A DNA stretch of 64,000 nt from Betaproteobacteria bacterium SCN1 (lineage in GTDB: Bacteria > Pseudomonadota > Gammaproteobacteria > Burkholderiales > Thiobacillaceae): contig WBSF01000008.1 of NCBI GenBank assembly GCA_008923315.1, positions 310,001 through 374,000 on the forward strand, written 5' to 3'. The position numbers and the translations under genes are program-made. The notes below the pieces were generated by a model, which did no database searches, was not told the DNA's origin, and was given only the letters and a program-made list of their open reading frames with translations. Below, one piece after another: positions 27,367 through 42,986 of the stretch. Within the stretch, counting starts at the first letter, position 1, and every line of letters begins with the position of its first letter.

Positions 27367-30300
27367 ATGTCCAGCCAGATCCTGAACCGCCTCCTGCTGG
27401 CGGCAGTCCTGAGCCTTGCGTCAAGTGCCGCATCCGCCGTCACACCGCATCGAGACGTCGCTCCTGTTTCCGCAGAAGCCATTGCCGCCGTACGCGACGC
27501 GCAGCGCGGGCGTCCCGACCCCATGGCAGCGGTGTTGGACCGCCATCTTCGCGAAGGCCTCGAACTGGCCGACCGCAGCGAGCGCGCCGCAGCGAAGTTC
27601 AAGCTAAAAGCAACCAAGGCCCCGGAGATCCAGAACGCCCTCGCCGGCCGCAAGGCGGAAGCTGCCGCCAAGCGGCAGGAACTGCGGACGCTGCGCGACG
27701 ACGTCATGCGCCGGATCGACGAAAAAGCCGATGCCTCGCCCGAAACGGCCGCATTCAAGGCGAAGCTGGATACGCGCTTCAAGGCCGTCGAACAGGATCT
27801 CGATGATCTGGCCCAAGCCGACAAGACCAACCTCGATGCCCGAGCCAAGCGGGCATCGAGCCGAATCAAAAGCTGGCTGGCCGCGCGCCCGGCCGAGCCG
27901 CTGCCGCAGCCCAACTGGCGCCAGGCCGAACCGGTCAAGCCGATGAAGCTACCGGCCGCCAAGGTCGTGCCGCGCTTCGTTTCGGATGCTTACTGGCTCA
28001 TGCAGGAGAAGGTGGCCAGCCGCGACGGCTTCATCCAGGTGGCACTCCGCAATACGCCTGCAGAAGCGACCGCTTGCGGTTATACCGCTGCGGATCTCGC
28101 CAACACGCCGGAAGCGCCCGTCACGAATCCCGACATCGTCGCACTGGCCAAAGAGCTCGACTACAACCCGGTGCGCATGTTCGAGTGGGTTAACCAAAAT
28201 ATCAAGTTCGAGCCCTACTACGGTTCGATGAAAGGTGCGGTCGGAACGCTCTGGAGCAAGTCGGGCGGCGCCACCGACCAGGCCAGTCTGCTTGCCGCCT
28301 TGCTGCGCGCCTCCAATATTCCCGTCCGTTACGTGCGCGGCAACATCGCCGTGCTGGACAATACTGCGCTGGGCGCGGACGGGCGTGGCGCCCGCTGGAT
28401 CGGCGCCAAGACTGCACAGGCTGCCGCCGGGGTCCTGGCCAACAACGGCAATCCGGCGGCGACGTATTACGGCGATGGCAAGGGCATCTCCTTCGCCCAT
28501 GTCTGGGTCGAGGCCTGCCTGCCGTATGCCGCGTATCGTGGCACCGGTCTCGACGACTCCGGCCACCGCTGGGTGCCGCTCGATCCTTCCTACAAGGACC
28601 GTCGCTACCAGGCCGGCATCAGTGTCGACGGTAGCTTCGACTTCAACTACGGAAACTGGCTGGCCAGCCGGCTGGATGCCAACGGCAACTATCGTCTGCC
28701 GCAGGAGGCCTTCGAAGGCGAAGTCGAGGCGCATGCCAAGACCAAAGCCCCGAATTACGCCAACAACACGCTCGAAGACGTGCCCTACAAGGCCGAGATC
28801 AAGCGCCAGCATTTCGACATCCTGCCCATCGTACCGCCGTATGAAGTGCTGCAGTACACAAGCTGGAGCGGCGTCGCCAATGAATCCGCCGAGACTGCCG
28901 CACTGCCGGACCGGCACAAATACCGCCTGCTCGTTGCCGCCAAGAATTCCGGCGGCAGCCTGCAAGCGCAAAAAACCCTGAACCTCGCGGAACTGGCGAG
29001 CAAGCGCCTGACCCTCTCGTACAAGGGCGCAACGCCTGCCGACCAGACCGCATTCGATACCTGGTTCAATGCCGTCGATCCCGGTGCCGCGCCCACGTGC
29101 TCGGCTTCTGCCAGCATGGTTCCAGGGTTCAAGCTCGAAGGGGTCGAACAGACCTCCGAGGCAGGCAGCGGCAGCGTCGCGCTCTGTTCGGCCAACAACC
29201 AGTTGACGATGACGGTGACGCTGGCTGAACTGGGATCTGCGGCCACCCGGTCGAGCGTGGGCTATTCGAACATCCGCGCAGCGAATCTCCATGCCCTGCA
29301 TGCCTACGCCTGGCACACCTCCGATACCTACCTTGCCAAGCGTTCGGCGCAACTGCTCGCCAGCGTGCAGGCCAACAATGGCAACGTCAACGCCGACCGC
29401 GACGGCATCGAGGGCGAGTTCCTCAACATCGCCGCCAGCAAATACATGCGTTATGTAGCGGATGCCACAAAGCGAACGGGCGAACTGTATGGGGAGTCCG
29501 GCACGACCGGCGTCAGCCTCGGTCTCACTTCCGCCCAGGTCAAGGTCGAGTACCTGTTCGATCTGCCCTACGGGCTTTACCGCAAGGGTTTCCTTGTCGA
29601 CTGGCCGGGCAACATCATTACCAGTACACGACTGGATACGCCGAGCACCACGGACAAGCGCGCTTTCAAGCTTGCAAGTTTCGCGGGTTCGGCTTACGAA
29701 GCCTACATCTGGAACGAGCTGGCCAATCTCGATGCGGTATCCACCACGCGCGGCCTGCAATTTGCCGACGAGCAGAACATCGAAATTCTGCAGATCAACA
29801 ACGGCACCGACTGGGCCAACAACAAGTGCAAGCTGACCAACAGCTGTTCCAACGGCGCGCTTAACACCAATCCGGCTGGCACCAATTACAGCGCAGCACA
29901 CGTCGGCCAGATCGAATCGCTATACGTCAACGCCGGCTTCAAGCTCACCATCCCGCGCCGCCTGATCCAGTATCCGGATGCGAGCGGCTGGCTGGGCGCG
30001 GCGTTCTACGCCGAGAACTTCTCGACCAACCCTGGGCAGGCCAGCTTCCCCATCAACGGCTATAGCGGCGGCGTCACCGTCGAGCCCTCTTCGGAATCGA
30101 ATGGCGGCTCAGGCGGAGGAAACGAGCCTGAATCCGGAAGCGGCTCTGCTTCCGGCGGTTACGGCGTCACCGACCCGCTCGGCAGCCTGTACAACCCGAG
30201 CCTCGGCACCGGCATCCTTGGCGACCCCTATGCCCCCACCTTCGCCCAGCAATCCGGCATCAACGGCAACCAGACCGCCAATGGCTACGGCACCGGCACC

Positions 30301-33300
30301 AGCGTCTCCGGCGACCCCGTCAACATGGTCACCGGCAACCTCATCCACAGCGAACGCGACATCGCCATCAAGGGCCGGGGCGGATTACCCCTCGTCTTCG
30401 AGCGCTGGTACAACAGCAAGGATGCGAAAGACGGCCCGCTCGGCTACGGCTGGACCCACAGCTTCAACCACGTCCTGCGCTTCTACGGCGTCGAATCGGG
30501 CGTGGCTAAAGTGTCGTGGACCGACGGCACCGGCGGCGAGCGTTTCTTCTCCACCGCCAACCACACGAGCGGAAACGTCAGCGTCGGCGCCGCGTTCGCC
30601 GGCACCGCCGGCGTCTACGCCACCCTCGAACGCCTGGCCGGCGGCACCTACCGCCTGACCGAGCGCTCGGGCATGGCTTACGTGTTCGAAAGCGTCAACG
30701 CCGGCACCACTGACACCGGCCTCAAGGCCCGCCTGCTGTCCATTACCGACCGCAACGGCAACGCGCTGACCCTGTCCTACGCGCCCATTGCCGGCTGCAC
30801 CGGCACGTACGTCTGCAAGGTCACGGACGGACTCAATCGCGCGCTGACCTTCGGCTACACCGCCGATCGCATCACGCAGATTCAGGATTTCTCGGGCCGT
30901 ACCTGGCAATACGCCTACAGCAACGGCGATCTGGTGACCTTCAAGAACCCGCTGGCCGTCGCTGGCAGCCAGCCCGCCGTCGCCTACCAGTACTATGCCG
31001 CCGCCGACGGCGCGAAGCTCGCCCACGCCCTGAAGCAATACACCCTGCCGCGCGGCAACGGCATGCGCTTTGAGTATTACCAAAACGGCCGCGTCTTCCG
31101 CCACACGCCCTTCGGCACCGACGGAACCCTGAAAGAAGGCCACGCCACCACCTTCGCCTGGACGGAGTTCCGCCGCGAAGCCCGGCAGATCGACGCGCTG
31201 GGCAATGAACGCCGCTTCCTGTTCGACGCCAATGGCAATCCCCTGTCGATCACCGACGAGGCCGGCGCCACCACCGAATACACCTACGATCAGACGGCCG
31301 GCCGCACCCACCTTCGCCTGACGAAGACCGACCCGATGGGCATGGTCACAGGCTATGCCTACGACAGCCAGGGCAACCTCAGCGACGTCACCCTGCCCAG
31401 CACGCGTACGCTCCAGTACCGCGACCACACCGCCTACGGCCAGCCCCGCCGCGTGAAGGACGCCGACGGCAACTGGACGCTCAACCGCTACGACAGCGCG
31501 GGCCGGCTCACCGACGTTATCCGCCTCAAAAACGGTATCGTGCCGGCGGTCGACACCAAGCCCGCCAACGGCGACATCGTCGCCTGGACGCAGCTTGCCT
31601 CGGACAGCGTCGGCAACCCCATCAAAACGCGCTCCCTGCGCGACTGGACCGGCGCGGTGCTCGGCGACGCCAACAGCGGCATCGGCCCCAGCCTCGAAAC
31701 CGCTTACGACGCCAACAAACTCAACGTGGTGAGCGTGACGCGCCGGGGCGACATCAACGGCAGCCCGGCCAGCCTGGAGACCGAGACCTACAGCGACTTC
31801 GCCTACGACAACCTCGGCCGCGCCACGCGCGGGCCGGATGCCAACTGGTACGCCGCCGACACCCAGTACGATGCCCTCGACCGCCCGGTCAAGACGCCCG
31901 ACGGACGCGGCCACCAGTGGGATACCGTCTTTGACGCCAACGGCAACCCGCTCATGGTGGGCCTCACCGTCAACGGCGCGTATCTCGACGGCCACTACGC
32001 CGCCTGGGACGATCTGGACCGGCTCGACCGCAAGGTGGACTACGCCGGCAACGCCACGCTGACCCGGTACGATGCGCTCGGCCGGATCAGCCAGGTCACC
32101 TCGCCGGACGGCTACAGCGTCGGCTTCGACCGCGACCCGCTGGGCCGCGTGACCGGCGCCTACAACGAGGAAGGCCAGCGCGTGTCCCTGAGCCTGGACG
32201 CCGCCGGACGCCCCCGCAGCAGCACCGACCCCAACAGCCTCACGACCCAATACGACTACTTCCACGCCAGCGAAGACGGCCGGCTCAAGACCACCACCCT
32301 GCCCAAGGTGACGGGGCAAAGCCAGAGCCGCAAGACCGAAGTCGCGAGCTACGACGGCGCCGGCCGGCCGACGCGCATCAACCTCGTCGCCGCCGACGGC
32401 AGCATCCGCGACAGCTACCGCTTCTACGACGAACTCGGACGGCTGACCCGCGAAGTCGGCCCGCAGGTATCCGCCAGCGACACCAGCCGGCCCGTCAGCT
32501 GTGTCGTCTACACGCCGCTCGGCGACGTGAAGGAGATCTGGGCCGGCAGCACGACCGACACCACCAGCAAGACTTGCACGCTCGATGGCGTGGCGGTGAA
32601 GCAGCAGGTCGCCCGCACCTACGACGACTTCGGCCGCAAGCTGACCGAAACCGACGCCCTCGGCAAGGTCTGGACGTGGACCTGGAACGTCCACAACGAG
32701 CTCGTTGCCAGTCAGACGCCGGTGCAGGCGGCAGCCGGTCAGTCCACGACCTACGCCTACGGTCAAAAAGGCCAGCCCGGCGAAACCCAGGGGCTGCTCA
32801 AACAACGCGCGGTACCGGGGACCAGCGGCCAGACCGCCGTCTACACCCGGAACGAACTGGGCCTCGTCACGCGGGCGGAGACCAAAAACCCCTCGAACCA
32901 GACCGTCGTCGCCTACGACTACGGCTACGACCTCGCCAAGCGGCTGGCGAACGTCACGGATTCCCGAGGCAACAAGCAACTCGTCTACACCTGGACGCCC
33001 GGCGGGCGGCTGGCCGGGGTCGCCGACAGCGATGGCCACGTCGCCAGCTTCGCCTACGACGCCGTTGGCCGGCTGGCGAGCATCGCCGCGCCCAACGGCG
33101 AACAGGTCAGCTTTGTCTGGGACGCCGGCGGACGGCTCGTCGAACAGCGGCTGAATTCGGGCCAGCGCACGACGCAGAGCTGGTTCGAGGACGGCAATCT
33201 CAAGCAGAAACAAAACCTGTTCAGCACGACTGTCCTCAGCAGTCATCTCTATACGCTGGACAACCAGGGCCGGCGCGCGACGCAGACCGAGAACGTCGGC

Positions 33301-34848
33301 GGGACGACAAAGAACTGGGCGTACCTGTATGACAACCTCGACCGACTGACCAGCGCCAGCGACGGCACGGCCGAGACCTACGGGTACGACATCTTCGGCA
33401 ACCGGCGGAGCAAGACCAAGGCCGGGACGACCACAGCCTACCTGTACGACGCGGCGCACCAGTTGAGCGAGATCCGCAGCGGCAGCGACGTCGGGACGCT
33501 GATCGGGGCGGCGGTGCATGATGCCGATGGGCATATGGTGAAGCTGTGCGAGGTCGCAACGGGCGGCAGCGTCACGAAAACATCAAGCGACTGCACGGCC
33601 TCGGGCACGGGGGCAACCACGCTCGCGCTGGTGTGGAACGCGCTCGACCACCTCAGCACCGCCACACGAACCGGTGCAGGCGCGATTGCAGAGAGCTACG
33701 TCTACGACGACGGTGGACGACGCATCGCCAAGACCAGCGCAGGCACGACGATGAGCTACCTCTACGACGGGGATGCGATTCACGCCGAATGGAACGGTGC
33801 AGTAAGCGGCAACCCGGCTGCCGCCTATATCCACGGTGCCGGCATCGACGAGCCGCTCCTGCGGCTGACCGGCAGCACGAACAGCCCGAGTGCCACCGAA
33901 GCGGCGTACATCCAGGACGGGCTCGGCAGCGTGGTCGGGCTGGCCAGCACGGCGGGTGCGCTGACGGCAAACCAGCGCTTCGATGCGTGGGGCGTCAGAA
34001 CCGCTGGTAGCGGCACGGTGCCCGCTTACGGCTACACCGGCAGGGAACCGGATGCGACCGGCATGGTGTTCTACCGTGCCCGCTACTACCACCCCGGCAT
34101 CGCGCGCTTCGCCAGCCGCGATCCGATGGGCATGGCGGACAGCGTGAGTTCGTATGCCTACGTAGCGAACAACCCCATCAACCTCGCCGACCCGTTCGGG
34201 ATGGAAGCGGCGCTCGCCGGCACGACGATGAACCCGGCTTACTGGGGGATGCTGGCGGATGCCAGTTTCTACACCGGTACGCAAACCGATGTACGCGGTG
34301 GAGGCAACGGCGGGACGTTCACGCCGGGGCAGCAGAAGATGCCGAGTCAGAGTGGATCGGGCGTGGGCGATTTACTGCTGGGATTCATTCCGGGCTACGA
34401 TCTGTATCAGGCCACACAGAACAACAACGCCGGTGTGGTCGATTACGCAGTCGGCATCCTCGGCGTTGCGCCCGGACTCGGCAAGGGGGCAGGGCTGGGG
34501 GTCAAGGCGGTCGATGCCGGCGTAGGGGCTATCAAAACCGCAGGCCAGCTTGGCCGCGAGGGCGAGGCAGCAGTACGCAGCCTCTACGACCTTGGCAAAA
34601 AGCAGGAATTCGTCATCAATGGCAAAACGCGAATTCCGGATGGAACGAACCTTGATCTTAAAACACTTTCCGAAGTCAAGAACACGCAATATCAGGGCTT
34701 CACGCAACAGTTGCGCGATTACTCGGGTATTGCTCAGCAGCAAGGGCTGCGCTTCGATCTGTATGTGCGGCCGGATGCAAAGCTGAGTGGGCCTTTGCAA
34801 AACGCTATCGACAAGGGTGAAATCAACAAGCTCTACATACCGAAATGA
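27367..34848 (+). CDS. Giant secreted Rhs-repeat polymorphic toxin with transglutaminase-like domain
   Basis: 2493 residues with a Sec signal peptide (SLASSAASAV). In order: charged helical region (30-190); transglutaminase-like domain (about 260-430) with FEWVNQNIKFEPYYG, HVWVEACLPY and WVPLDPSYKD but no cysteine where the nucleophile normally stands (GGATDQASLLAALL); beta-rich middle; Rhs repeats (from about 980, GRGGLPLVFERWYNSKD) full of YD.xGRL units; Rhs core end with RARYYHPGIARFASRDPMG and NNPINLADPFG near residue 2265; and a variable toxin tail. The tail contains GREGEAAVRSLYDLG, then RIPDGTN and SEVKNTQ, the D/ExK pattern of a restriction-endonuclease-fold toxin (Tox-REase-7-like). 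Immunity gene overlaps the stop by four bases. Confidence 0.92.
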   Translation: MSSQILNRLLLAAVLSLASSAASAVTPHRDVAPVSAEAIAAVRDAQRGRPDPMAAVLDRHLREGLELADRSERAAAKFKLKATKAPEIQNALAGRKAEAAAKRQELRTLRDDVMRRIDEKADASPETAAFKAKLDTRFKAVEQDLDDLAQADKTNLDARAKRASSRIKSWLAARPAEPLPQPNWRQAEPVKPMKLPAAKVVPRFVSDAYWLMQEKVASRDGFIQVALRNTPAEATACGYTAADLANTPEAPVTNPDIVALAKELDYNPVRMFEWVNQNIKFEPYYGSMKGAVGTLWSKSGGATDQASLLAALLRASNIPVRYVRGNIAVLDNTALGADGRGARWIGAKTAQAAAGVLANNGNPAATYYGDGKGISFAHVWVEACLPYAAYRGTGLDDSGHRWVPLDPSYKDRRYQAGISVDGSFDFNYGNWLASRLDANGNYRLPQEAFEGEVEAHAKTKAPNYANNTLEDVPYKAEIKRQHFDILPIVPPYEVLQYTSWSGVANESAETAALPDRHKYRLLVAAKNSGGSLQAQKTLNLAELASKRLTLSYKGATPADQTAFDTWFNAVDPGAAPTCSASASMVPGFKLEGVEQTSEAGSGSVALCSANNQLTMTVTLAELGSAATRSSVGYSNIRAANLHALHAYAWHTSDTYLAKRSAQLLASVQANNGNVNADRDGIEGEFLNIAASKYMRYVADATKRTGELYGESGTTGVSLGLTSAQVKVEYLFDLPYGLYRKGFLVDWPGNIITSTRLDTPSTTDKRAFKLASFAGSAYEAYIWNELANLDAVSTTRGLQFADEQNIEILQINNGTDWANNKCKLTNSCSNGALNTNPAGTNYSAAHVGQIESLYVNAGFKLTIPRRLIQYPDASGWLGAAFYAENFSTNPGQASFPINGYSGGVTVEPSSESNGGSGGGNEPESGSGSASGGYGVTDPLGSLYNPSLGTGILGDPYAPTFAQQSGINGNQTANGYGTGTSVSGDPVNMVTGNLIHSERDIAIKGRGGLPLVFERWYNSKDAKDGPLGYGWTHSFNHVLRFYGVESGVAKVSWTDGTGGERFFSTANHTSGNVSVGAAFAGTAGVYATLERLAGGTYRLTERSGMAYVFESVNAGTTDTGLKARLLSITDRNGNALTLSYAPIAGCTGTYVCKVTDGLNRALTFGYTADRITQIQDFSGRTWQYAYSNGDLVTFKNPLAVAGSQPAVAYQYYAAADGAKLAHALKQYTLPRGNGMRFEYYQNGRVFRHTPFGTDGTLKEGHATTFAWTEFRREARQIDALGNERRFLFDANGNPLSITDEAGATTEYTYDQTAGRTHLRLTKTDPMGMVTGYAYDSQGNLSDVTLPSTRTLQYRDHTAYGQPRRVKDADGNWTLNRYDSAGRLTDVIRLKNGIVPAVDTKPANGDIVAWTQLASDSVGNPIKTRSLRDWTGAVLGDANSGIGPSLETAYDANKLNVVSVTRRGDINGSPASLETETYSDFAYDNLGRATRGPDANWYAADTQYDALDRPVKTPDGRGHQWDTVFDANGNPLMVGLTVNGAYLDGHYAAWDDLDRLDRKVDYAGNATLTRYDALGRISQVTSPDGYSVGFDRDPLGRVTGAYNEEGQRVSLSLDAAGRPRSSTDPNSLTTQYDYFHASEDGRLKTTTLPKVTGQSQSRKTEVASYDGAGRPTRINLVAADGSIRDSYRFYDELGRLTREVGPQVSASDTSRPVSCVVYTPLGDVKEIWAGSTTDTTSKTCTLDGVAVKQQVARTYDDFGRKLTETDALGKVWTWTWNVHNELVASQTPVQAAAGQSTTYAYGQKGQPGETQGLLKQRAVPGTSGQTAVYTRNELGLVTRAETKNPSNQTVVAYDYGYDLAKRLANVTDSRGNKQLVYTWTPGGRLAGVADSDGHVASFAYDAVGRLASIAAPNGEQVSFVWDAGGRLVEQRLNSGQRTTQSWFEDGNLKQKQNLFSTTVLSSHLYTLDNQGRRATQTENVGGTTKNWAYLYDNLDRLTSASDGTAETYGYDIFGNRRSKTKAGTTTAYLYDAAHQLSEIRSGSDVGTLIGAAVHDADGHMVKLCEVATGGSVTKTSSDCTASGTGATTLALVWNALDHLSTATRTGAGAIAESYVYDDGGRRIAKTSAGTTMSYLYDGDAIHAEWNGAVSGNPAAAYIHGAGIDEPLLRLTGSTNSPSATEAAYIQDGLGSVVGLASTAGALTANQRFDAWGVRTAGSGTVPAYGYTGREPDATGMVFYRARYYHPGIARFASRDPMGMADSVSSYAYVANNPINLADPFGMEAALAGTTMNPAYWGMLADASFYTGTQTDVRGGGNGGTFTPGQQKMPSQSGSGVGDLLLGFIPGYDLYQATQNNNAGVVDYAVGILGVAPGLGKGAGLGVKAVDAGVGAIKTAGQLGREGEAAVRSLYDLGKKQEFVINGKTRIPDGTNLDLKTLSEVKNTQYQGFTQQLRDYSGIAQQQGLRFDLYVRPDAKLSGPLQNAIDKGEINKLYIPK

Positions 34849-35525
34849 CTGCGAAAATTAAGACATCTACCCGCCCCTCACTTTCGAAAGCCGAACTAGA
34901 GCGGCTTAGGGAAGAGAATTACGATGCCTTTCTTCGGTTGAAATTGACTGATGAAGAAAAAATCATAATTCAGGAAATGGTTGCTGAGCGTGAGAAACGG
35001 CGCCTAGAAGAAGTAGCGAAACTGCGCGAAGCATCAAAACCCTTGGTATCGGCACTGCATGCAGCAGGCTATCCGGTCAACGGTGTTTGGGATCTCGTCA
35101 ACACCACTGATCGCTACGATTCGGCTCTTCCTATCCTTGCCGAACACCTTGAGCGCGACTATCCGCCGGAAATCCAGGAAGGCATCGCGCGGGCGATGGG
35201 GGTCGGCGAGGCGATGCCGTGGCGGCCCGTATTCATCCGTTTGATTCGCAGCCGCCCGCCCATGCCACCCGGAAAGCGCGACGGCTTTCGCGATGGCTTG
35301 GCGGTGGCGATCGGCAACACCACGGGACCGCACAATGTCGAGGAGACGCTTGAACTGTTGCGTGACCGTTCGCTTGGCGAGAGTCGGATACTGATGACCA
35401 GCATTTTCAGAAAACTCAAGGACCCTGTCGTACAGCAAGTCTTGCTTGATTTACGCGAACGGGAGCCTGAGTTGAGAATCGCAATCAGCGAACTACCTTG
35501 GGTTAAGAAGCTGGACAAGGCGTAA
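34845..35525 (+). CDS. Cognate immunity protein of the Rhs toxin (putative)
   Basis: 226 residues starting within the toxin's stop (ATGA overlap). Soluble and charged, with an N-terminal helix and a repeat-like helical body (YPPEIQEGIARAMGVGEAMPW, VEETLELLRDRSLGESRILM) that suggests HEAT-like helices. Immunity to the Rhs tail is inferred from the position and overlap, which is the rule for polymorphic toxins; no family name is certain. Base composition is visibly AT-richer than the Rhs core. Confidence 0.8.
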   Translation: MTAKIKTSTRPSLSKAELERLREENYDAFLRLKLTDEEKIIIQEMVAEREKRRLEEVAKLREASKPLVSALHAAGYPVNGVWDLVNTTDRYDSALPILAEHLERDYPPEIQEGIARAMGVGEAMPWRPVFIRLIRSRPPMPPGKRDGFRDGLAVAIGNTTGPHNVEETLELLRDRSLGESRILMTSIFRKLKDPVVQQVLLDLREREPELRIAISELPWVKKLDKA

Positions 35526-35808
35526 CTACTCCATCGCATGAGGATGGTGTTGAAGGTAAGGAGTTGTGGATAGATGTTCGCGTTGCCTATCGGGAGATCA
35601 ATAAGAGCGAATACACAGTCCTTTGGCCGCAGGGACTGAATTTTGCACTGAGTGTAAGGCGTCTGTGACTGCTCCTCTTACTAGGAATCAATCGGCCGCA
35701 TTCCCTGAGATACAACAGTCAGGTGCGGTGGTTGTTGGCAAGGGGAAGCCTGGGTTTCCCGGTGGCACGCAAATACCGCCGACTACGGTAAATATCGTCA
35801 GGCCATAG
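35526..35808 (+). pseudogene. Orphan, frameshifted toxin tail
   Basis: A headless coding fragment. One frame reads HEDGVEGKELWIDVRVAYRE and ends at a TGA at 35666; a second overlapping frame from about 35630 reads GTEFCTECKASVTAPLTRN and ends FPGGTQIPPTTVNIVRP at 35808. The two join sensibly if one base shift is allowed near 35630. The E-C-K motif and the FPGGT...PPT ending resemble C-termini of nuclease toxins attached to Rhs or filamentous proteins. It has no start and no repeat region, so I call it a displaced toxin tail left by cassette exchange. Confidence 0.6.
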
Positions 35809-35825
35809 TGTGTTGGAGAATTCAG

Positions 35826-36158
35826 ATGTCAGTAGATCAAACGAGTGTGGTTGATGCAATCGGAGTCGACAAGGTAACTGGCGATTTAGTACTGACCATA
35901 TCGGATCACCTTGAATGGACAGGCAATGATAATGAGCACCTTCTCTTATTGCAGGAAAAACTCAATACTTATCTTGGCTTTGTTGAAGGAGGGGAAATTT
36001 TTAAAACCTATCCTGATGCAAAAGATAGGGCGGTATTGATCGATGTTGTCTGCAAATTTCCTTTAAATCAGGAAGCTGAAAATTTCTATGGCCATGTTAC
36101 CTCGATTGTCGAGGGGGCTGGAATAAAGCTCCAGCACAGAACATTCAATGCTGCTTAA
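35826..36158 (+). CDS. DUF6572-type immunity protein
   Basis: 110 residues from the ATG at 35826. The opening SVDQTSVVDAIGVDKVTGDL and LTISDHLEWTGNDNEHLLLL match my memory of DUF6572, found beside polymorphic toxins. It follows the broken toxin tail and is probably its surviving immunity gene. AT-rich. Retained immunity without toxin is common where neighbours carry the toxin. Confidence 0.75.
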   Translation: MSVDQTSVVDAIGVDKVTGDLVLTISDHLEWTGNDNEHLLLLQEKLNTYLGFVEGGEIFKTYPDAKDRAVLIDVVCKFPLNQEAENFYGHVTSIVEGAGIKLQHRTFNAA

Positions 36159-36404: not shown

Positions 36405-37169
36405 TCACTTAAATTCAACAGGGAAGTTTAGTTCGAGATGGAGGATAGTAATCGGATCCATTTTCCAGGCCGCCCTATCGTGATGTGAGCAATCTACGAG
36501 GCCTGTGCCTGGTATTGAAATTCTGTGGATGTGCAGTGGTTTGGGCTGGTATTGCTGCAGTGCTGCCAAAATGGCTTCTTGCATGGTGCTGCCGTCGTTG
36601 TTGATGCTGTAGGCCAACATGGCGCCGAGGGGGCCGGTGCTATATGCCGAGTCATGAGAGAAGAAGCAACCCATGCCATCGGCCGCGAGGTATTTGGTCT
36701 GTATATCGCGCTGTGATGTAAGCGGCTTAGCCTCAATAGTTAGTTCTGGAGCGCCGGGATGCTCTAGAGAGCACACCCTGAAATCGACTTTCTTTGAATG
36801 CCGTCCTGCGCGCTTGTCGCTCTTGACTGGTGATTCGAACGAAAAGCACACATCATGCTGTCGCAAGAAGTGATTTGATGGGAGCGCCTTGCGTAACTCC
36901 TCGGCCCGGTGTCCGATTTCTGAGGTGATAGCGTCTTCTGTTGGGATCCGGATTACTGTACCCGCCCGTCCCCTCTTGGGCTTGCCCATGGCGCCGGCCT
37001 TCTGCTTGAAGCCAGCCCAGTTTGCGGGCTCGACTAGCTGTTCTGCGGCTTGCCAATAGAGCTGCAGCACGTGGCGTAAGAACTCCGACCATATTTGCGC
37101 TTTAGGGGCCGAGAAACCACGCTGCTTGAGCAGCGCCTTGATATTTTGTCCTGCAGGGGGTCCGCTCAA
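36405..37169 (-). CDS. Putative restriction nuclease, PD-(D/E)xK type
   Basis: 254 residues, overlapping the methyltransferase stop by four bases. A candidate catalytic pattern is visible: D129 in KKVDFRV and E146-x-K148 in LTIEAKPL, separated by a short loop, as in PD-(D/E)xK nucleases. The N-terminal part is helical with a conserved-looking RIPTEDAITSEIGHR. I do not recognise a named family. Being last in a three-gene operon behind a DNA methyltransferase, it is most simply the restriction subunit. Confidence 0.65.
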   Translation of the reverse strand: MSGPPAGQNIKALLKQRGFSAPKAQIWSEFLRHVLQLYWQAAEQLVEPANWAGFKQKAGAMGKPKRGRAGTVIRIPTEDAITSEIGHRAEELRKALPSNHFLRQHDVCFSFESPVKSDKRAGRHSKKVDFRVCSLEHPGAPELTIEAKPLTSQRDIQTKYLAADGMGCFFSHDSAYSTGPLGAMLAYSINNDGSTMQEAILAALQQYQPKPLHIHRISIPGTGLVDCSHHDRAAWKMDPITILHLELNFPVEFK

Positions 37170-40100
37170 GCGGCCTCCTGAGTGAATTCATCCATGGCAC
37201 GGCGGCTGTCAGCGTAAGCACTGTCAACGGTCCATCTGAAGTACTCCAACGGTTTAATGATGGCGATAGTCGACGTGCCCGGATCAACGGTGATCACCAG
37301 ACTGTTGTTGAATGGGTTACTGCCCTGCCGGTGGTTGGCTTCAATAGCTCTTTGGCAGGCTGATATCAGATCGATGCCATGGGCGGTGGGCTCTTCGTCT
37401 GCATAGTGGGCAACGATAACGCCGACACCACTCTCGGGATCGTCTTTGTGGGCCACGTTGAATGCGCCTTTTCGGCCGATGAGTCCGTCCAGACTACGCT
37501 GGAAAACTTTTGAGTAGTTTGCAAGCATGCCTTGCTTGGCTGACGTAAGGGCTGCGTCGGGTACGTTTCCATCTTGAAACCACATGCGAAAGTGCAGGAA
37601 TTCATTGATGGCGCTACGCAGGTCACGGTCGAGCTTGAAGGCCTTGAGGATAAAATCCTCAAGCTTCTTGCCTTCATGAGCAAGAACTTGCTGGATGCGT
37701 TCATCGTCGAGCGAGGTAAACGGCACCGGAAGACTGGCGAAATCAGCGGGCTCAACATTGCGACGATCCATGAGCCAGCGCCGGCCAATAGTGGCTAAAA
37801 AATAGAGGGCCACGCTGCTGTTCAGATACTTTTCCAGTGCACGCAGGAACCGTATTTCTATAGCAGTGACTTGATTTCCAGGTTTGTCAAAAAAGACCGC
37901 CAAGTAGCTTGATGTATATGCCTTTGGATAATCAATGAAGCGGATGTTGTGAAAGTTCCTTGGGACGAGAAGTATGTTTCCGCTGAATTGATTTTTATAG
38001 TTCTGTTTTGCTTTTGATAGCTGTGACCAGGACAGGCGATCTTTCTCTCGTGCTATGGAAGAAGCCTCGTCAGTATCGAACAAATCTCGGATCGGCTTGG
38101 CAGAGGCGAGTTTTGTTTTGGATTCAACATGCGGGCCGTCATCTAGAAGTTCAGTGGGCAAACCAGTGTCACTAGCATTCCCACCACGCTTGCATTTGGC
38201 GCCAATTTGGTCGCACAGCGTGCCTAGCAATGCAATCGATCCGCTTGCGGCGGAGTCAATGACATACCGCTGAATTTGTCGGTCAACTGGTCTAAGCACG
38301 AAGGCTTCAAACCAACTACGGGATGTGGCCGCCAATGCGTCATGCCTAAAGCGCTGAACTGCCGCCTCATCCATGACCAAGGTCCATGGCCAAGTGTCTT
38401 TTGAGGCAATGGGTTGGCTAATAGATAGTGGCGTGTATACCCACGTCCAGTCGGCGGGCGTAGGCTTGCGTTTGCGCAGAAAGAGCGCCGCGCAAGCATG
38501 TTTGGCCCCGGAAAAGAGCTTGTGACGGAGGTGCGAGAAATTGATAGCGCCGCTGACATAAGTTTCGGCCTGCAGGCGACTGCGAAACCTTGCTGCGGTC
38601 GGGTTAATGAATGACTTGGACGGAATGAGCATAGCAAGCACGCCGTCTTCCACAAGGTGTTCGCGTAGTGCTTTCCAGACAAAGATTTCTGCAGCTTGAT
38701 CTTTGCCAATAGGGCAATCTAGATGGGCACTGGCCCACTTGATTGCCATAGGCGATTCAAGTTTGCCCAAAGTCTGCCATGGTGGATTGCCTACCACACA
38801 TCGGATAGGTGGAATGGAGCCATGCATCGATTTAGAGAAGAAATCATTGGCAAATAAGTTTGTGCCCACGAGGCCGGGGAAGAGTTTCTTAGGGTCTTGT
38901 CCAGCGGCGACCACATTCAAGTCACGCGGTCTCACATAGTCGAGCATGGTCAGGTAGAGACTAAATGCCGTGACGTGGCAGGCATCTGAATTGCGCTCTA
39001 CGCCAAAGATGTTGTGAACAAGTAACCTGCGAATCTGCTCCAGGGATAGTGGGTCTGGGCTGTTTGCCCGCGCGTGCTCAAGGATTCGGCGGTATGCCCC
39101 AACAAGGAACACCCCCGATCCTGCCGTGGGATCGAGTACGGTGACGCCGTCTTGGAGCGTCAGGTCGTCTTCAACTCTGTCGAGCACAAGGTCGACTAGG
39201 AATGGCGGCGTGTAGTATGCCCCTACCCGTCGACGCTCGCCGCATTTTACGTTTTCAAAAAATTGCTCATACACAGCCGCCAGGGTTTCAACGCGCAGCA
39301 CGCTCAAGTCAATGTCTATAAAGCTGAACTGCACAGCGCCGCTGGCTTGCGTTCTCGCACCATGCTTCAGGACAGCTCTGGCAAGATGGATGTGTGTGGC
39401 GTTGATTTCCGCACGATCAGCCGCAGAGAGCGGGAAAATGCTGCCATTGAATATGGAGTCGAGATCGTCGAGTAGTTTCCAAAATGCTCGCTTGTTCCAG
39501 GATGCGTTAGCGTCCGCGAGATTGACCCCATCATGGCCACGGCTCTTAAGCCAGTCTTGATTGATGATGTCACGATCCACCAAAAAATATAGGTAGAGCA
39601 GCTTGCCGATAAGCCCGTTGGCAGCGGTATGCCCTAGGCACTTGTCGACACCCACGCCGTAGATAAGGTTGTGACTAAGGTCGCTTAGACCCCAAAGAAG
39701 GGTCTGGTCGACGCGACCACTCACGTCAATGGCATGCTCTCGCCAGAATATTGATGAGCGCAAGCGGCTTGCACGCAGGTTGATAAGCTTTTTTGCTGTT
39801 TCTGAAATGGCGGAACAGACTGCGTCATCAGCGTTAATCTCGCCCCAGCTTACAGCGTGTACATTCTGCTGCCACTGTTCGCTTGCATATTGGAAGCCGT
39901 GGCAAATCAATACCTCTTCAGGTGTGGCTATGAGTAGAAACGGAACGAGGCCTTGACTCCAAACTTTTCGGTGAATAGCTTGGGCCTGATCAAGATCAGC
40001 AGCTGTAGCAATGTAGACTAAGGGAGCTGAAACCGCTGATGCGTTTTGGCCAGACAGCCAGCAAAAGGCACCTATGACACCCATAGAATCGCGGGCTTGT

Positions 40101-40234
40101 ACCAGAGCGAAACGGTGGGCATGAACGGTATCGAACCTATCAGAGGCAACCCAGCCATTGGGCGATGAGTATGAAAGCAAGCAGAGCAACTGCTTCAGCT
40201 TCTTTTTCATGATGGCCGGCTGGGGGCTGTTCAT
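37166..40234 (-). CDS. Class-gamma N6-adenine DNA methyltransferase (R-M subunit)
   Basis: 1022 residues. SAM-binding motif DPTAGSGVFL at about residue 368, preceded by GAYYTPPFLVD at about 337, and catalytic NPPW at about 483. The arrangement YTP, DPTAGSG, NPPW is that of HsdM/Eco57I-like methylases. The C-terminal 400 residues carry what should be the target-recognition region (ADFASLPVPFTSLDD). I see no obvious nuclease motif in the N-terminal 300 residues, so cleavage is probably done by the overlapping downstream protein. Overlaps both neighbours by four bases. AT-richer than the tra genes. Confidence 0.88.
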   Translation of the reverse strand: MNSPQPAIMKKKLKQLLCLLSYSSPNGWVASDRFDTVHAHRFALVQARDSMGVIGAFCWLSGQNASAVSAPLVYIATAADLDQAQAIHRKVWSQGLVPFLLIATPEEVLICHGFQYASEQWQQNVHAVSWGEINADDAVCSAISETAKKLINLRASRLRSSIFWREHAIDVSGRVDQTLLWGLSDLSHNLIYGVGVDKCLGHTAANGLIGKLLYLYFLVDRDIINQDWLKSRGHDGVNLADANASWNKRAFWKLLDDLDSIFNGSIFPLSAADRAEINATHIHLARAVLKHGARTQASGAVQFSFIDIDLSVLRVETLAAVYEQFFENVKCGERRRVGAYYTPPFLVDLVLDRVEDDLTLQDGVTVLDPTAGSGVFLVGAYRRILEHARANSPDPLSLEQIRRLLVHNIFGVERNSDACHVTAFSLYLTMLDYVRPRDLNVVAAGQDPKKLFPGLVGTNLFANDFFSKSMHGSIPPIRCVVGNPPWQTLGKLESPMAIKWASAHLDCPIGKDQAAEIFVWKALREHLVEDGVLAMLIPSKSFINPTAARFRSRLQAETYVSGAINFSHLRHKLFSGAKHACAALFLRKRKPTPADWTWVYTPLSISQPIASKDTWPWTLVMDEAAVQRFRHDALAATSRSWFEAFVLRPVDRQIQRYVIDSAASGSIALLGTLCDQIGAKCKRGGNASDTGLPTELLDDGPHVESKTKLASAKPIRDLFDTDEASSIAREKDRLSWSQLSKAKQNYKNQFSGNILLVPRNFHNIRFIDYPKAYTSSYLAVFFDKPGNQVTAIEIRFLRALEKYLNSSVALYFLATIGRRWLMDRRNVEPADFASLPVPFTSLDDERIQQVLAHEGKKLEDFILKAFKLDRDLRSAINEFLHFRMWFQDGNVPDAALTSAKQGMLANYSKVFQRSLDGLIGRKGAFNVAHKDDPESGVGVIVAHYADEEPTAHGIDLISACQRAIEANHRQGSNPFNNSLVITVDPGTSTIAIIKPLEYFRWTVDSAYADSRRAMDEFTQEAA

Positions 40235-40746
40235 CGCCGAGCCCGCCGGTCTTGGTGAGGTGAATTGGCTTCTGTGTCCGCAGTTTGGCCAACAAGCGCT
40301 GGGCCAAAATTCAAGGGCACTTGAGAGGAAAGCAAGCCGCAGCCGGCTTGCTGCATGTGGCTATCTGCGCGGGCAAAAATTTCAGCAAGGGACAGTATCA
40401 CCCCTTGTTCAAGGTTGGCTTCACTGTCGACATACCGCGCCGTCGGCGGATTCATCGTTAATACAAGTTTCGGCGCTCTAGCTACAGGGCGCGGGCCCGA
40501 AATCTCGTAGGCGATCGCCGGCAAAAGGGCGGCAATGGTACTACGCTTAAGGCCCACAGTAGTATCGAGCTCGCATGCAATAAGAATGACCAAAAAATCA
40601 TGCGGTGAGTACGTTCGCGCAACACGGGGCTGAGATGCAGCCTCGGCCTCAAATTTATAGGAAAGCTCAGCTAGCAGTCCGCGAAACTGATTGCGGGTGA
40701 GGTTTGCGACACGGTACACGTCTACCGCTTTTAGTCGTCTGCCCAT
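40231..40746 (-). CDS. Putative controller of the restriction operon
   Basis: 171 residues. Opening RRLKAVDVYRVANLTRNQFRGLL looks like a MerR-like winged helix, and a second helical unit follows (YSPHDFLVILIACELDTTVGLKRSTIAALL). First gene of the operon; its start codon is inside a perfect 13-base-arm palindrome. The C-terminus is basic (PHQDRRARR). I infer a DNA-binding controller that represses or times expression of the methylase and nuclease. Not a known C-protein family as far as I can tell. Confidence 0.6.
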   Translation of the reverse strand: MGRRLKAVDVYRVANLTRNQFRGLLAELSYKFEAEAASQPRVARTYSPHDFLVILIACELDTTVGLKRSTIAALLPAIAYEISGPRPVARAPKLVLTMNPPTARYVDSEANLEQGVILSLAEIFARADSHMQQAGCGLLSSQVPLNFGPALVGQTADTEANSPHQDRRARR

Positions 40747-40809
40747 CTGCGCATTCTATGCGCAGATGGGCACGGAAACAACCCCATCTGCGTGAAGTTT
40801 GCGCAGATG
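40741..40809 (-). promoter_or_regulatory. Palindromic operators upstream of the restriction operon
   Basis: A perfect palindrome, arms GCCCATCTGCGCA and TGCGCAGATGGGC with a five-base spacer (40741-40771), overlaps the controller's start codon. A second, CATCTGCG...CGCAGATG (40785-40809), shares the same CATCTGCG half-site. Two sites with one half-site sequence imply cooperative binding of one regulator, most likely the first gene's product. Confidence 0.75.
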
Positions 40810-40976: not shown

Positions 40977-41002
40977 TTCATGATAACTATTATTATCATG
41001 AA
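40977..41002. repeat. AT-rich 10-bp inverted repeat beside a tyrosine recombinase
   Basis: Arms TTCATGATAA and TTATCATGAA are perfect, with a six-base spacer CTATTA, 52 bases before the recombinase start. Arm and spacer lengths are those of a tyrosine recombinase core site, and the AT-rich composition stands out. It may be the recombinase's own crossover site or its operator. Confidence 0.5.
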
Positions 41003-41054: not shown

Positions 41055-42986
41055 TTGGCCAATCAGGCACTTATCGCCTTCTCTTCGCACCGGAAGATCG
41101 GACGCAATCATCTGGCCTTCTACCGGGCCTGGCTGCAGGGCCTCGATCTCAAGGTCGCGGCTGACCGCTACCTCGAATCGAGCCTGGACCTGCGCCTGGC
41201 GCGTGCGACCCTGGGCTGGATCCAGGAGACACTGGCCATGGCAGCCCGCCGGCACGGCAAGCACGCCCTGGTTCGATTGCTCCGGCTCCCGCTTGGCCCG
41301 CCCCCACCGGAGGCCTCGGCTCAGCAGCCTGCGGCCGCGCCGTCCCTCGAAGCGTTTCGTGCCGCGGCCGATCCGGATGGTTTCTATTCGGAGGCGGAGC
41401 TGACCGTGCTCTTCCTCGATGCCTACCCGCAAAGCCACGACAAGCAGGCCCGCCACCGCGCACGCCTGATCGAGCGCCAGCTGGCGGCGCTGGTCTGGCT
41501 GGAGGATCTGCTGGCCACCGATCCGCAACTGCAGGACTCGGTTGCGGCCTGGTTCGACGACCGCCTGGCAGCACGGCTCATCCTGGCCGGGATAGGCACT
41601 CTCGGCGACCTGCAAGGGCGGATCCGCACGCACGGCTACCGCTGGTGGGTAACGGTGCCACGCCTCGGGGAGAAAGGGGCCGCGCGTCTGGTCGCGTGGC
41701 TCACTCGGCACGAATCCTCCCTCGGCACACTGCCGGCGCAGGGCCATGCACCACAGCGATCGATGCCGGCGACTGCGCTCATACGGCCTGCCATCACCGC
41801 CATCATGCCGCTGGAGTCCTTCGTCCCGCCGGCGGCGCTTGATGGCTCCCGAGGCGTTAACCGCGGCTCTGGCCGCTGCCAGCTCGACGCCGAAAACGAC
41901 TATCAAGCCATCCAGGCCTGGCTCAAGGCCCGGGCCTTGAGTCCCCATACGGAGCGAGCCTACCGTCGCGAAGCAGAACGTTTGCTGCTCTGGGCCGTCC
42001 TGGAGCGCGCCCAGGCGCTCTCCTCCCTGACGATCGACGACGTGACCGCGTACCGCGACTGGCTCGGCGGTCTGGCTCGGACCCCGCCCGAGAGATGGAC
42101 CTGGCGCATCGCTCAGGCGGAATGGCTCGCCTCCCGATCGACGCCCCGCTGGTCGCCATCCTGGCGTCCGTTCGAAGGTGCCCTCGCCTCCCGCAGCCAG
42201 GTCCATGCGTACACGATCCTGAAATCCCTCTTCGAGTGGCTCTGCAAGGTGCGATATCTGGAAAGCAACCCCTGGGAGGCCGTCTCGGCAAGATATGCCG
42301 GTACCCTGTCGAGCCCCTCCTTCGAAGTCTCACATGCTTTCACCCGCAGCCAGTGGCGCTACCTGATCGGCCATCTCGGCACCCTTCCCGATGACGATGC
42401 TACCCATCGGATGCGCTTCGTCCTGCCCTTCGCCTATGCGACCGGCCTGCGCCTTGCCGAGCTGGTCGACGCGCGCCTGGGGCGGCTCTGTTCCATGCCC
42501 CTGAAGGACGAGCTGGGGGTACGCTGGATGCTCAAGGTACTTGGCAAGGGCAACCGCTGGCGGTCGGTACCCATGCCGGCCGTGGTGATGGATGCGCTGC
42601 GCGTGTATCTGACCAGGCGCGGGCTGGATGCCGATCCAGCCGCAAACGCCCCCGATACTCCGCTCGTCGCGCCGCTTGCGGGCCGCGCCAACCTGAAGTC
42701 CCTGAATCCCTCGACCCTGTATAAGGCTCTGAGAGGATTCTTCAAGAGCGCTGCGGTTTCGCTTGATCAGCAGGGACTAAGGGAAGATGCCCTGAAGATA
42801 GAGCAGGCGACCACGCACTGGCTGCGCCATACCCGTGGCAGTCACTCTGCCGAGACCATGCCGCTCAACCTGATCCAGCGCCTGCTGGGGCATGCCAGTG
42901 TGGCAACGACGGGGATATATACTTCCAGCGATGACGAATCCTTGTACCTCGCCCTCAATGAGGGGGTCGCCTCAGCGCTTGACTGA
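41055..42986 (+). CDS. Tyrosine recombinase with N-terminal DUF3701-type domain
   Basis: 643 residues. The first 220 residues have the text I associate with DUF3701 (HRKIGRNHLAFYRAWLQGLD, ESSLDLRLARATLGWIQETL). A core-binding domain follows near 285-390 (YQAIQAWLKARALSPHTERAY), then the catalytic domain: R in YATGLRLAELV, K in GKGNRWRSVPMP, HxxR in THWLRHTRGSH, and Y in VATTGIYTSS near residue 622. All catalytic residues are present. Long recombinases of this kind occur on mobile elements and could be the integrase of this one. The start codon is not ATG-clear; I use the longest supported frame. Confidence 0.9.
   Translation: MANQALIAFSSHRKIGRNHLAFYRAWLQGLDLKVAADRYLESSLDLRLARATLGWIQETLAMAARRHGKHALVRLLRLPLGPPPPEASAQQPAAAPSLEAFRAAADPDGFYSEAELTVLFLDAYPQSHDKQARHRARLIERQLAALVWLEDLLATDPQLQDSVAAWFDDRLAARLILAGIGTLGDLQGRIRTHGYRWWVTVPRLGEKGAARLVAWLTRHESSLGTLPAQGHAPQRSMPATALIRPAITAIMPLESFVPPAALDGSRGVNRGSGRCQLDAENDYQAIQAWLKARALSPHTERAYRREAERLLLWAVLERAQALSSLTIDDVTAYRDWLGGLARTPPERWTWRIAQAEWLASRSTPRWSPSWRPFEGALASRSQVHAYTILKSLFEWLCKVRYLESNPWEAVSARYAGTLSSPSFEVSHAFTRSQWRYLIGHLGTLPDDDATHRMRFVLPFAYATGLRLAELVDARLGRLCSMPLKDELGVRWMLKVLGKGNRWRSVPMPAVVMDALRVYLTRRGLDADPAANAPDTPLVAPLAGRANLKSLNPSTLYKALRGFFKSAAVSLDQQGLREDALKIEQATTHWLRHTRGSHSAETMPLNLIQRLLGHASVATTGIYTSSDDESLYLALNEGVASALD

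Follow-up and report, generated by a model that had tools for sequence, protein, structure and literature searches.

A putative translocase-free, split Type IIG-like restriction-modification operon with a predicted dead nuclease domain and a separate PD-(D/E)xK protein

The window analysed here is the whole of a 64,000-nucleotide stretch of contig WBSF01000008.1 from Betaproteobacteria bacterium SCN1, and it carries a compact operon of three genes that encode, in order, a small DNA-binding leader protein, a Type IIG-like N6-adenine methyltransferase (M) and a stand-alone PD-(D/E)xK protein (N) (coordinates in Table 1). The operon is very likely a restriction-modification (R-M) type system, and the reading that we prefer, to which we give a probability of about 0.6, is a split Type IIG-like R-M system that works without a translocase. 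What was computed here is the gene layout, the conservation of motifs and operators, the predicted folds and the pairing of M with N. In the mechanism we propose, M would share ancestry with the single-chain Type IIG enzymes or descend from them, and would have kept a nuclease domain of its own that is dead; its C-terminal part would recognise a specific target, and M, as its intact motifs indicate, would methylate adenine at N6. N would supply a Mg-dependent PD-(D/E)xK active site and would most likely cut only when M holds it at an unmethylated site, perhaps docked via the dead domain of M. The leader would bind two palindromes over its own start and the promoter region and set the expression of the operon.

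A first-pass annotation of this DNA, made without database searches, had described three overlapping open reading frames (ORFs), a methyltransferase with intact S-adenosylmethionine and NPPW motifs, and a nuclease split off from an Eco57I-type methylase, and all of this was borne out, the last of these on the predicted fold of M. The positions, the minus strand and both 4-nt overlaps (ATGA at the leader/M junction and TTGA at the M/N junction) are as described, and M has DPTAGSG (residues 368-374) and NPPW (483-486) and matches Pfam N6_Mtase (5.7e-15) and Eco57I (6e-9), both above cut-off. M also matches the PADLOC model REase_MTase_IIG (PDLC03623, 1.5e-46) over residues 24-590, and the Bradyrhizobium betae homologue of M matches PDLC03623 over its full length with 831 bits; defence annotation therefore treats M by itself as a single-chain Type IIG enzyme, even though that chain lacks the nuclease residues. 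In an AlphaFold2 (AF2) model of M residues 1-331 (predicted local distance difference test, pLDDT, 80.5; predicted template modelling score, pTM, 0.82; the AF2 alignments took in viral-contig relatives and the window and left out the closest homologues), residues 1-163 align with the nuclease regions of DrdV (Z 7.0), BpuSI (Z 6.4) and other restriction-endonuclease-like proteins, these Z values being middling, and the top rows of a structural comparison with residues 1-170 are mostly PD-(D/E)xK entries. Residues 175-331 resemble the helical N-domain of HsdM (2okc) with Z 9.8 and a root-mean-square deviation of 3.0 over 124 residues. By sequence profile the N-terminus of M has no trustworthy PDB relative.

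The catalytic strand of this domain reads APLVYIATAA in the window as against IPKFFVEAKK in the one single-chain relative, from Psychrobacter, and the aspartate is also missing in the window. The N-terminal domain of M would thus, on the predicted fold, be a retained nuclease domain that is catalytically dead. In the 28 M proteins that have an N partner, ExK is absent from the aligned strand every time, and it is present in all 28 N partners. The Psychrobacter M (plasmid pA18BP1, L016) has an intact D...EAK and no N gene, and the canonical FVEAK occurs in no other M examined. With the active site either in the chain (Psychrobacter) or in the partner N (28 pairs), the simplest reading would be that there is one active site per system, placed in M or in N. 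Two viral contigs (L038 and L040) have neither ExK in M nor an N gene and may carry stand-alone methyltransferases or truncated systems. The 'ExK' strings present in M of the B. betae type (VIEIK at 94 and ALEIK at 36) were rejected as catalytic because they lie on the wrong strand and are not conserved. Two other assignments were also set aside, BREX (PglX models give M 43.5 bits against a cut-off of 400 bits, and there is no PglZ-like neighbour in the operon) and DrmMI/DISARM (the similarity of the methyltransferase domain is weak, 1e-5 for the Labrenzia homologue, and there are no other DISARM genes).

N is likely to be the cutting subunit. The D..ExK pattern that had been noticed in the 254-residue protein is D129...E146-x-K148, and these residues are invariant in all 19 aligned N homologues, together with W51, E78, Y160, F169, M184, H230 and H244, at sequence identities down to about 15-20%. 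Structure prediction had been proposed by the first-pass annotation as a check on the nuclease, and the AF2 model of N (pLDDT 70, pTM 0.72) has helix 78-94, strands 107-110, 130-134 and 142-150, helix 154-170 and strand 181-189. This succession, helix-strand-strand-strand-helix-strand, is that of the PD-(D/E)xK core; D129 precedes one strand and E146-x-K148 sits on the following one. The first seven rows of a Foldseek search with N are all PD-(D/E)xK nucleases (McrC, EcoO109I, BglII, PaqCI, FokI) at E values of 0.07 and above, and the top seven rows of the VIA list are BamHI, OkrAI, BstYI and BglII entries with Z about 7. As such Z values are common, the nuclease call rests on residues and topology together. 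There is no significant hit to any model for N in Pfam, NCBIfam, PADLOC or PHROGs, and no trustworthy PDB relative by sequence profile. By all available signs, that is the invariant residues and the predicted topology, N is a PD-(D/E)xK nuclease.

The arrangement proved to be a widespread family, which goes beyond the first-pass annotation. In Proteobacteria, plasmids and viral contigs the cassette takes the form regulator/M/N or M/N, and N lies immediately downstream of M in 32 of the 35 inspected loci with an M relative (one of these, L034, is cut by the contig end), the exceptions being the Psychrobacter plasmid and the two viral contigs already mentioned; this count leaves out L032, where the contig ends inside M, and the distant methyltransferases L025, L026 and L041. 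N stands beside M in plasmids of Agrobacterium, Rhizobium, Bradyrhizobium, Sagittula, Paracoccus, Ciceribacter, Sphingobium, Asticcacaulis, Labrenzia, Methylobacterium, Cereibacter, Mameliella and Pseudomonas frederiksbergensis, and outside plasmids in a chromosome from another family of the window's order (G437), in 5 genomes of the window's own genus and in 8 viral contigs. In the Labrenzia branch, M and N occur in exactly the same plasmid records, 21 in number. Because the layout is kept across so many loci, chance is excluded. It is sparse all the same: the window's own type of N was found in no other genome among 369 in a sample of the class and in one other among 399 in a sample of the order. 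Plasmids, whole genomes and scans with M supplied the N relatives; searches of genome contigs and viral contigs with N, or with its close alignment, gave no match, and there was no N relative among phage records. A match in G392 (L006, E 2e-4) was rejected as an insulinase-type peptidase in another frame, and L010, with 49 residues inside a 660-aa frame, was dropped as an N relative.

Several records carry N beside a broken M and bear on whether N can act without it. Plasmid pA of Agrobacterium sp. CGMCC 11546 (L002:5805-8708) has a 1354-bp deletion of about codons 280-730 of M that removes both catalytic motifs and leaves the leader and N intact beside the gutted gene, nature's own experiment on the toxicity of N by itself; in Rhizobium gallicum M is frameshifted and N is intact; and 12 plasmid records of Pseudosulfitobacter pseudonitzschiae (L063:6115-8180 and L064) keep only the C-terminal half of M, without NPPW, with N and its catalytic residues intact. 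(The Pseudosulfitobacter N is annotated as a 'Fis family transcriptional regulator', a label that looks wrong.) A Type II endonuclease able to act by itself would be expected to kill a cell that lacks the matching methyltransferase; N persists and appears harmless without M, so that on balance it probably depends on M for cutting. The same records bear on the alternative of an orthodox Type II R-M system, in which N would be an independent BamHI-like endonuclease that recognises M's site alone and the N-terminal domain of M would be a structural relic. The size of N and its nearest folds are those of Type IIP enzymes (BamHI, BstYI, BglII), and separate R and M genes with a regulator are the classical layout, but an autonomous N left intact where M is destroyed should be lethal, M carries a predicted dead Type IIG nuclease domain, and the N proteins of several M branches share motifs and can all be recognised as a single family, which is unusual for independent Type II restriction endonucleases. 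We regard this alternative as rather unlikely. The comparison of N with the target recognition domain (TRD) part of M speaks partly for it: pairwise identities in close pairs indicate a similar degree of divergence, which also fits N reading its own target and does not decide whether N has its own specificity. That N diverges between close relatives about as much as the TRD part of M is one of several points that weigh against the split Type IIG-like reading. In the plasmids with broken M, N may be unexpressed or another methyltransferase may protect, the Pseudosulfitobacter copies lack the leader as well, and some of the M frameshifts could be sequencing errors; in addition, confidence in the N model is moderate (pLDDT 70, from 8 sequences) and the fold matches are middling (Z about 7, Foldseek E above 0.07).

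Two further explanations concern what N and M do together. N might serve methylation-linked defence by some other route, as a methyl-directed Type IV-like or an abortive-infection nuclease and not as the restriction partner of M, and here one may cite BREX-like systems, which restrict without cleavage despite a similar methyltransferase (PMC4752239), and the weak scores of M against the PglX models. Given the obligate pairing and overlap of N with M, the lack of PglZ and of every other BREX gene at this locus and the toxicity that a methyl-directed nuclease would have beside an active M, we consider this improbable. It is more improbable still that M is mainly an epigenetic regulator, or what is left of a decayed R-M system, with N being lost in either case: M is indeed broken in several lineages, but the window has all three genes intact with all motifs and operators, and N and the leader are under purifying selection between the Agrobacterium and Rhizobium copies (for N, nonsynonymous divergence dN is 0.14 against a synonymous divergence dS of 2.0).

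Returning to the split Type IIG-like reading, reviews take an R domain fixed at the N-terminus of the chain as the defining feature of a Type IIG enzyme (PMC3874165; PMC4081073). The operon is like Eco57I, BpuSI, DrdV and MmeI in having a gamma-class N6 methyltransferase that follows a predicted nuclease-fold domain and a helical connector, with a C-terminal recognition region; it differs in that D/E/K are absent from the fused nuclease and the adjacent gene encodes a separate PD-(D/E)xK protein. Blow et al. (2016) described Type IIG-like systems in which the nuclease, of the phospholipase D (PLD), GIY-YIG or HNH type, is a peptide of its own and translocases are present, and they called classification ongoing (PMC4752239). 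AchA6III, OspHL35III and MexAMORF1192P from that work share with our operon a methyltransferase/TRD protein without a PD-ExK motif and a separate nuclease gene, but theirs is a translocase with PLD, GIY-YIG or HNH whereas ours has a PD-(D/E)xK nuclease, a small DNA-binding leader and a retained, predicted dead domain. No helicase or translocase gene is present in the window operon, and none is consistent in the cassettes of the other inspected loci. For Haloferax volcanii a split Type IIG pair, HVO_A0006/HVO_A0237, has been proposed, with the suggestion that the chains interact (PMC4389544); there too a PD-(D/E)xK nuclease and a Type IIG-derived methyltransferase are on separate chains, but the separate fragment is the N-terminal nuclease portion itself, lying amid transposition genes, whereas here M retains that domain, predicted to be dead, and the operon adds a different PD-(D/E)xK protein, N. 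The heterodimeric enzymes BspD6I, BsrDI and BtsI (PMC4081073) resemble it in having a large recognition chain and a small catalytic chain without specificity of its own (for N this part is predicted), but their large chain cuts one strand and their methyltransferases are separate, whereas here the large chain is the methyltransferase and has lost its nuclease site. With no translocase, a PD-(D/E)xK partner, a predicted dead domain in M and a DNA-binding leader, the operon is therefore a variant that differs from the described split systems. The suggestion that it might be a new R-M or phage-defence arrangement thus stands for the variant, which is new, and not for the kind, as separate-nuclease Type IIG-like systems were already known. 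No paper describing the cassette was found in the open-licence literature; REBASE may hold members.

It is a tentative suggestion that the dead domain docks N. We put forward just as tentatively the fuller idea that this domain could be a docking or licensing platform for a separate N that by itself is neither specific nor active; the two would form an ATP-independent restriction enzyme of two subunits with a replaceable cutter, expressed under an interchangeable leader regulator. If N does depend on M, the two subunits would make a compact platform, with a single recognition module directing marking as well as cutting. The family is also a natural case for testing how a nuclease domain, once fused, can be inactivated and replaced in trans. 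The cassette occurs on dozens of plasmids, viral contigs and chromosomes and the defence libraries (PADLOC, Pfam, NCBIfam, PHROGs) have no model for its nuclease, so that recognising N mends the annotation of an R-M family and adds a family of PD-(D/E)xK nucleases.

The palindrome reported at the leader is present with 15-nt perfect arms and has a second copy upstream (Table 1). Both putative operators contain the 23-bp palindrome ATCTGCG-9-CGCAGAT, centred at -9.5 and -50.5 from the leader ATG, and they lengthen the feature to 40809, beyond the leader start at which it had first been ended. In G437, which belongs to another family of the same taxonomic order, both operators lie at identical positions with the same type of sequence and the same 41-bp spacing. 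The 3.09-Mb genome has just one further exact palindrome of the operator form, so that the leader's action is probably confined to its own operon. No convincing promoter was found at the leader in a sigma-70 scan. The leader had been called MerR-like and unlike known C proteins, and both descriptions agree with what we found. The window leader has no direct Pfam hit, and none that is significant in NCBIfam, PADLOC or PHROGs, but a homologue from the same genus exceeds the Pfam MerR_1 cut-off and the leader family matches MerR_1-annotated leaders in a full-length profile-profile comparison (hhalign over 139 columns, E 4.9e-9, probability 96%). C proteins are XRE-type, and the window leader matches no PADLOC model for such a controller. 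The likeness to Type II R-M systems under C-protein control is that a small, here presumably autoregulatory, DNA-binding protein is encoded with the R-M genes and palindromic operators are present; the difference is that the leader is MerR-like here and RHH-like or XRE-S24 in related cassettes. Thus in Labrenzia, Sphingobium, Cereibacter, Asticcacaulis and Paracoccus ferrooxidans the leader has 64 aa and ribbon-helix-helix (RHH) character, with a Pfam RHH match below cut-off, and in viral contig L030 it is an XRE plus S24 repressor-like protein. Since the leader types differ between branches while M and N stay together, the regulator is, as far as these sequences indicate, exchangeable across the cassette family, a feature that the first-pass annotation had not foreseen. 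Unannotated MerR-like leaders lie upstream of M in Paracoccus sp. TOH (L013) and R. gallicum (L019) (tblastn 5e-30 to 3e-60). The MerR leaders of B. betae (L014) and Ciceribacter (L017) share a palindromic core GGGTA...TACCC at most 60 bases upstream of their starts at 4132 and 3352, which suggests conserved autoregulation through a different operator.

Table 1. Features of the operon in the window
Feature	Coordinates	Strand	Description	Basis
Leader gene	40746-40231	minus	MerR-like DNA-binding protein of 171 aa, presumed to autoregulate the operon	ORF list, profile match
M gene	40234-37166	minus	1022-aa gamma-type N6-adenine methyltransferase, Type IIG-like architecture	Pfam, PADLOC
M residues 1-164	39743-40234	minus	pseudo-nuclease: predicted PD-(D/E)xK-fold domain without catalytic residues	predicted fold, alignments
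M residues 175-331	39242-39712	minus	helical connector resembling the helical N-domain of HsdM (Type I)	structural comparison
N gene	37169-36405	minus	254-aa stand-alone PD-(D/E)xK protein (E78, D129, E146, K148), TTG start	
Proximal putative operator	40740-40772		palindrome TGCCCATCTGCGCAT-3-ATGCGCAGATGGGCA, 15-nt perfect arms, encloses the leader's ATG	
Distal putative operator	40785-40809		CATCTGCG-9-CGCAGATG, 41 bp from the proximal copy	

Around the cassette in other genomes, PADLOC identifies Septu PtuAB (RhizE13), PDC-M01AB (G437) and AbiH (Asticcacaulis), and the record annotation gives TIR and SIR2 proteins (Cereibacter) and, in Agrobacterium, an ABC-three-component protein together with Tni transposition genes. 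Such defence and transposition neighbours would fit a mobile anti-phage role for the cassette. The PDC-M01A/B pair of G437 (L007:10630-13086; an AAA ATPase plus an HNH protein, Septu-like) is directly downstream of the cassette, and upstream of it are Prok-JAB and ThiF genes resembling a PRTRC cluster. In the window the G+C content of the operon region is 0.52-0.53 as against about 0.6 in most of the window, as expected of acquired DNA. Upstream of the operon and divergent from it is a tyrosine recombinase of 643 aa (41055-42986; Phage_integrase plus DUF3701). DNA about 70% identical to it is present in some genomes of the genus, and the recombinase may therefore mark a mobile island. Between the leader and the recombinase lies a second inverted repeat (40977-41002, TTCATGATAA-6-TTATCATGAA), possibly the recombinase's own regulatory or recombination site. 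On the far side of the operon, the region 27367-35525 encodes an RHS-repeat protein of 2493 aa that is probably a polymorphic toxin and next, overlapping by 4 nt, a 226-aa ORF (34845-35525), possibly the matching immunity gene; after this pair comes a DUF6572 protein at 35808-36158 (Pfam 2.3e-34).

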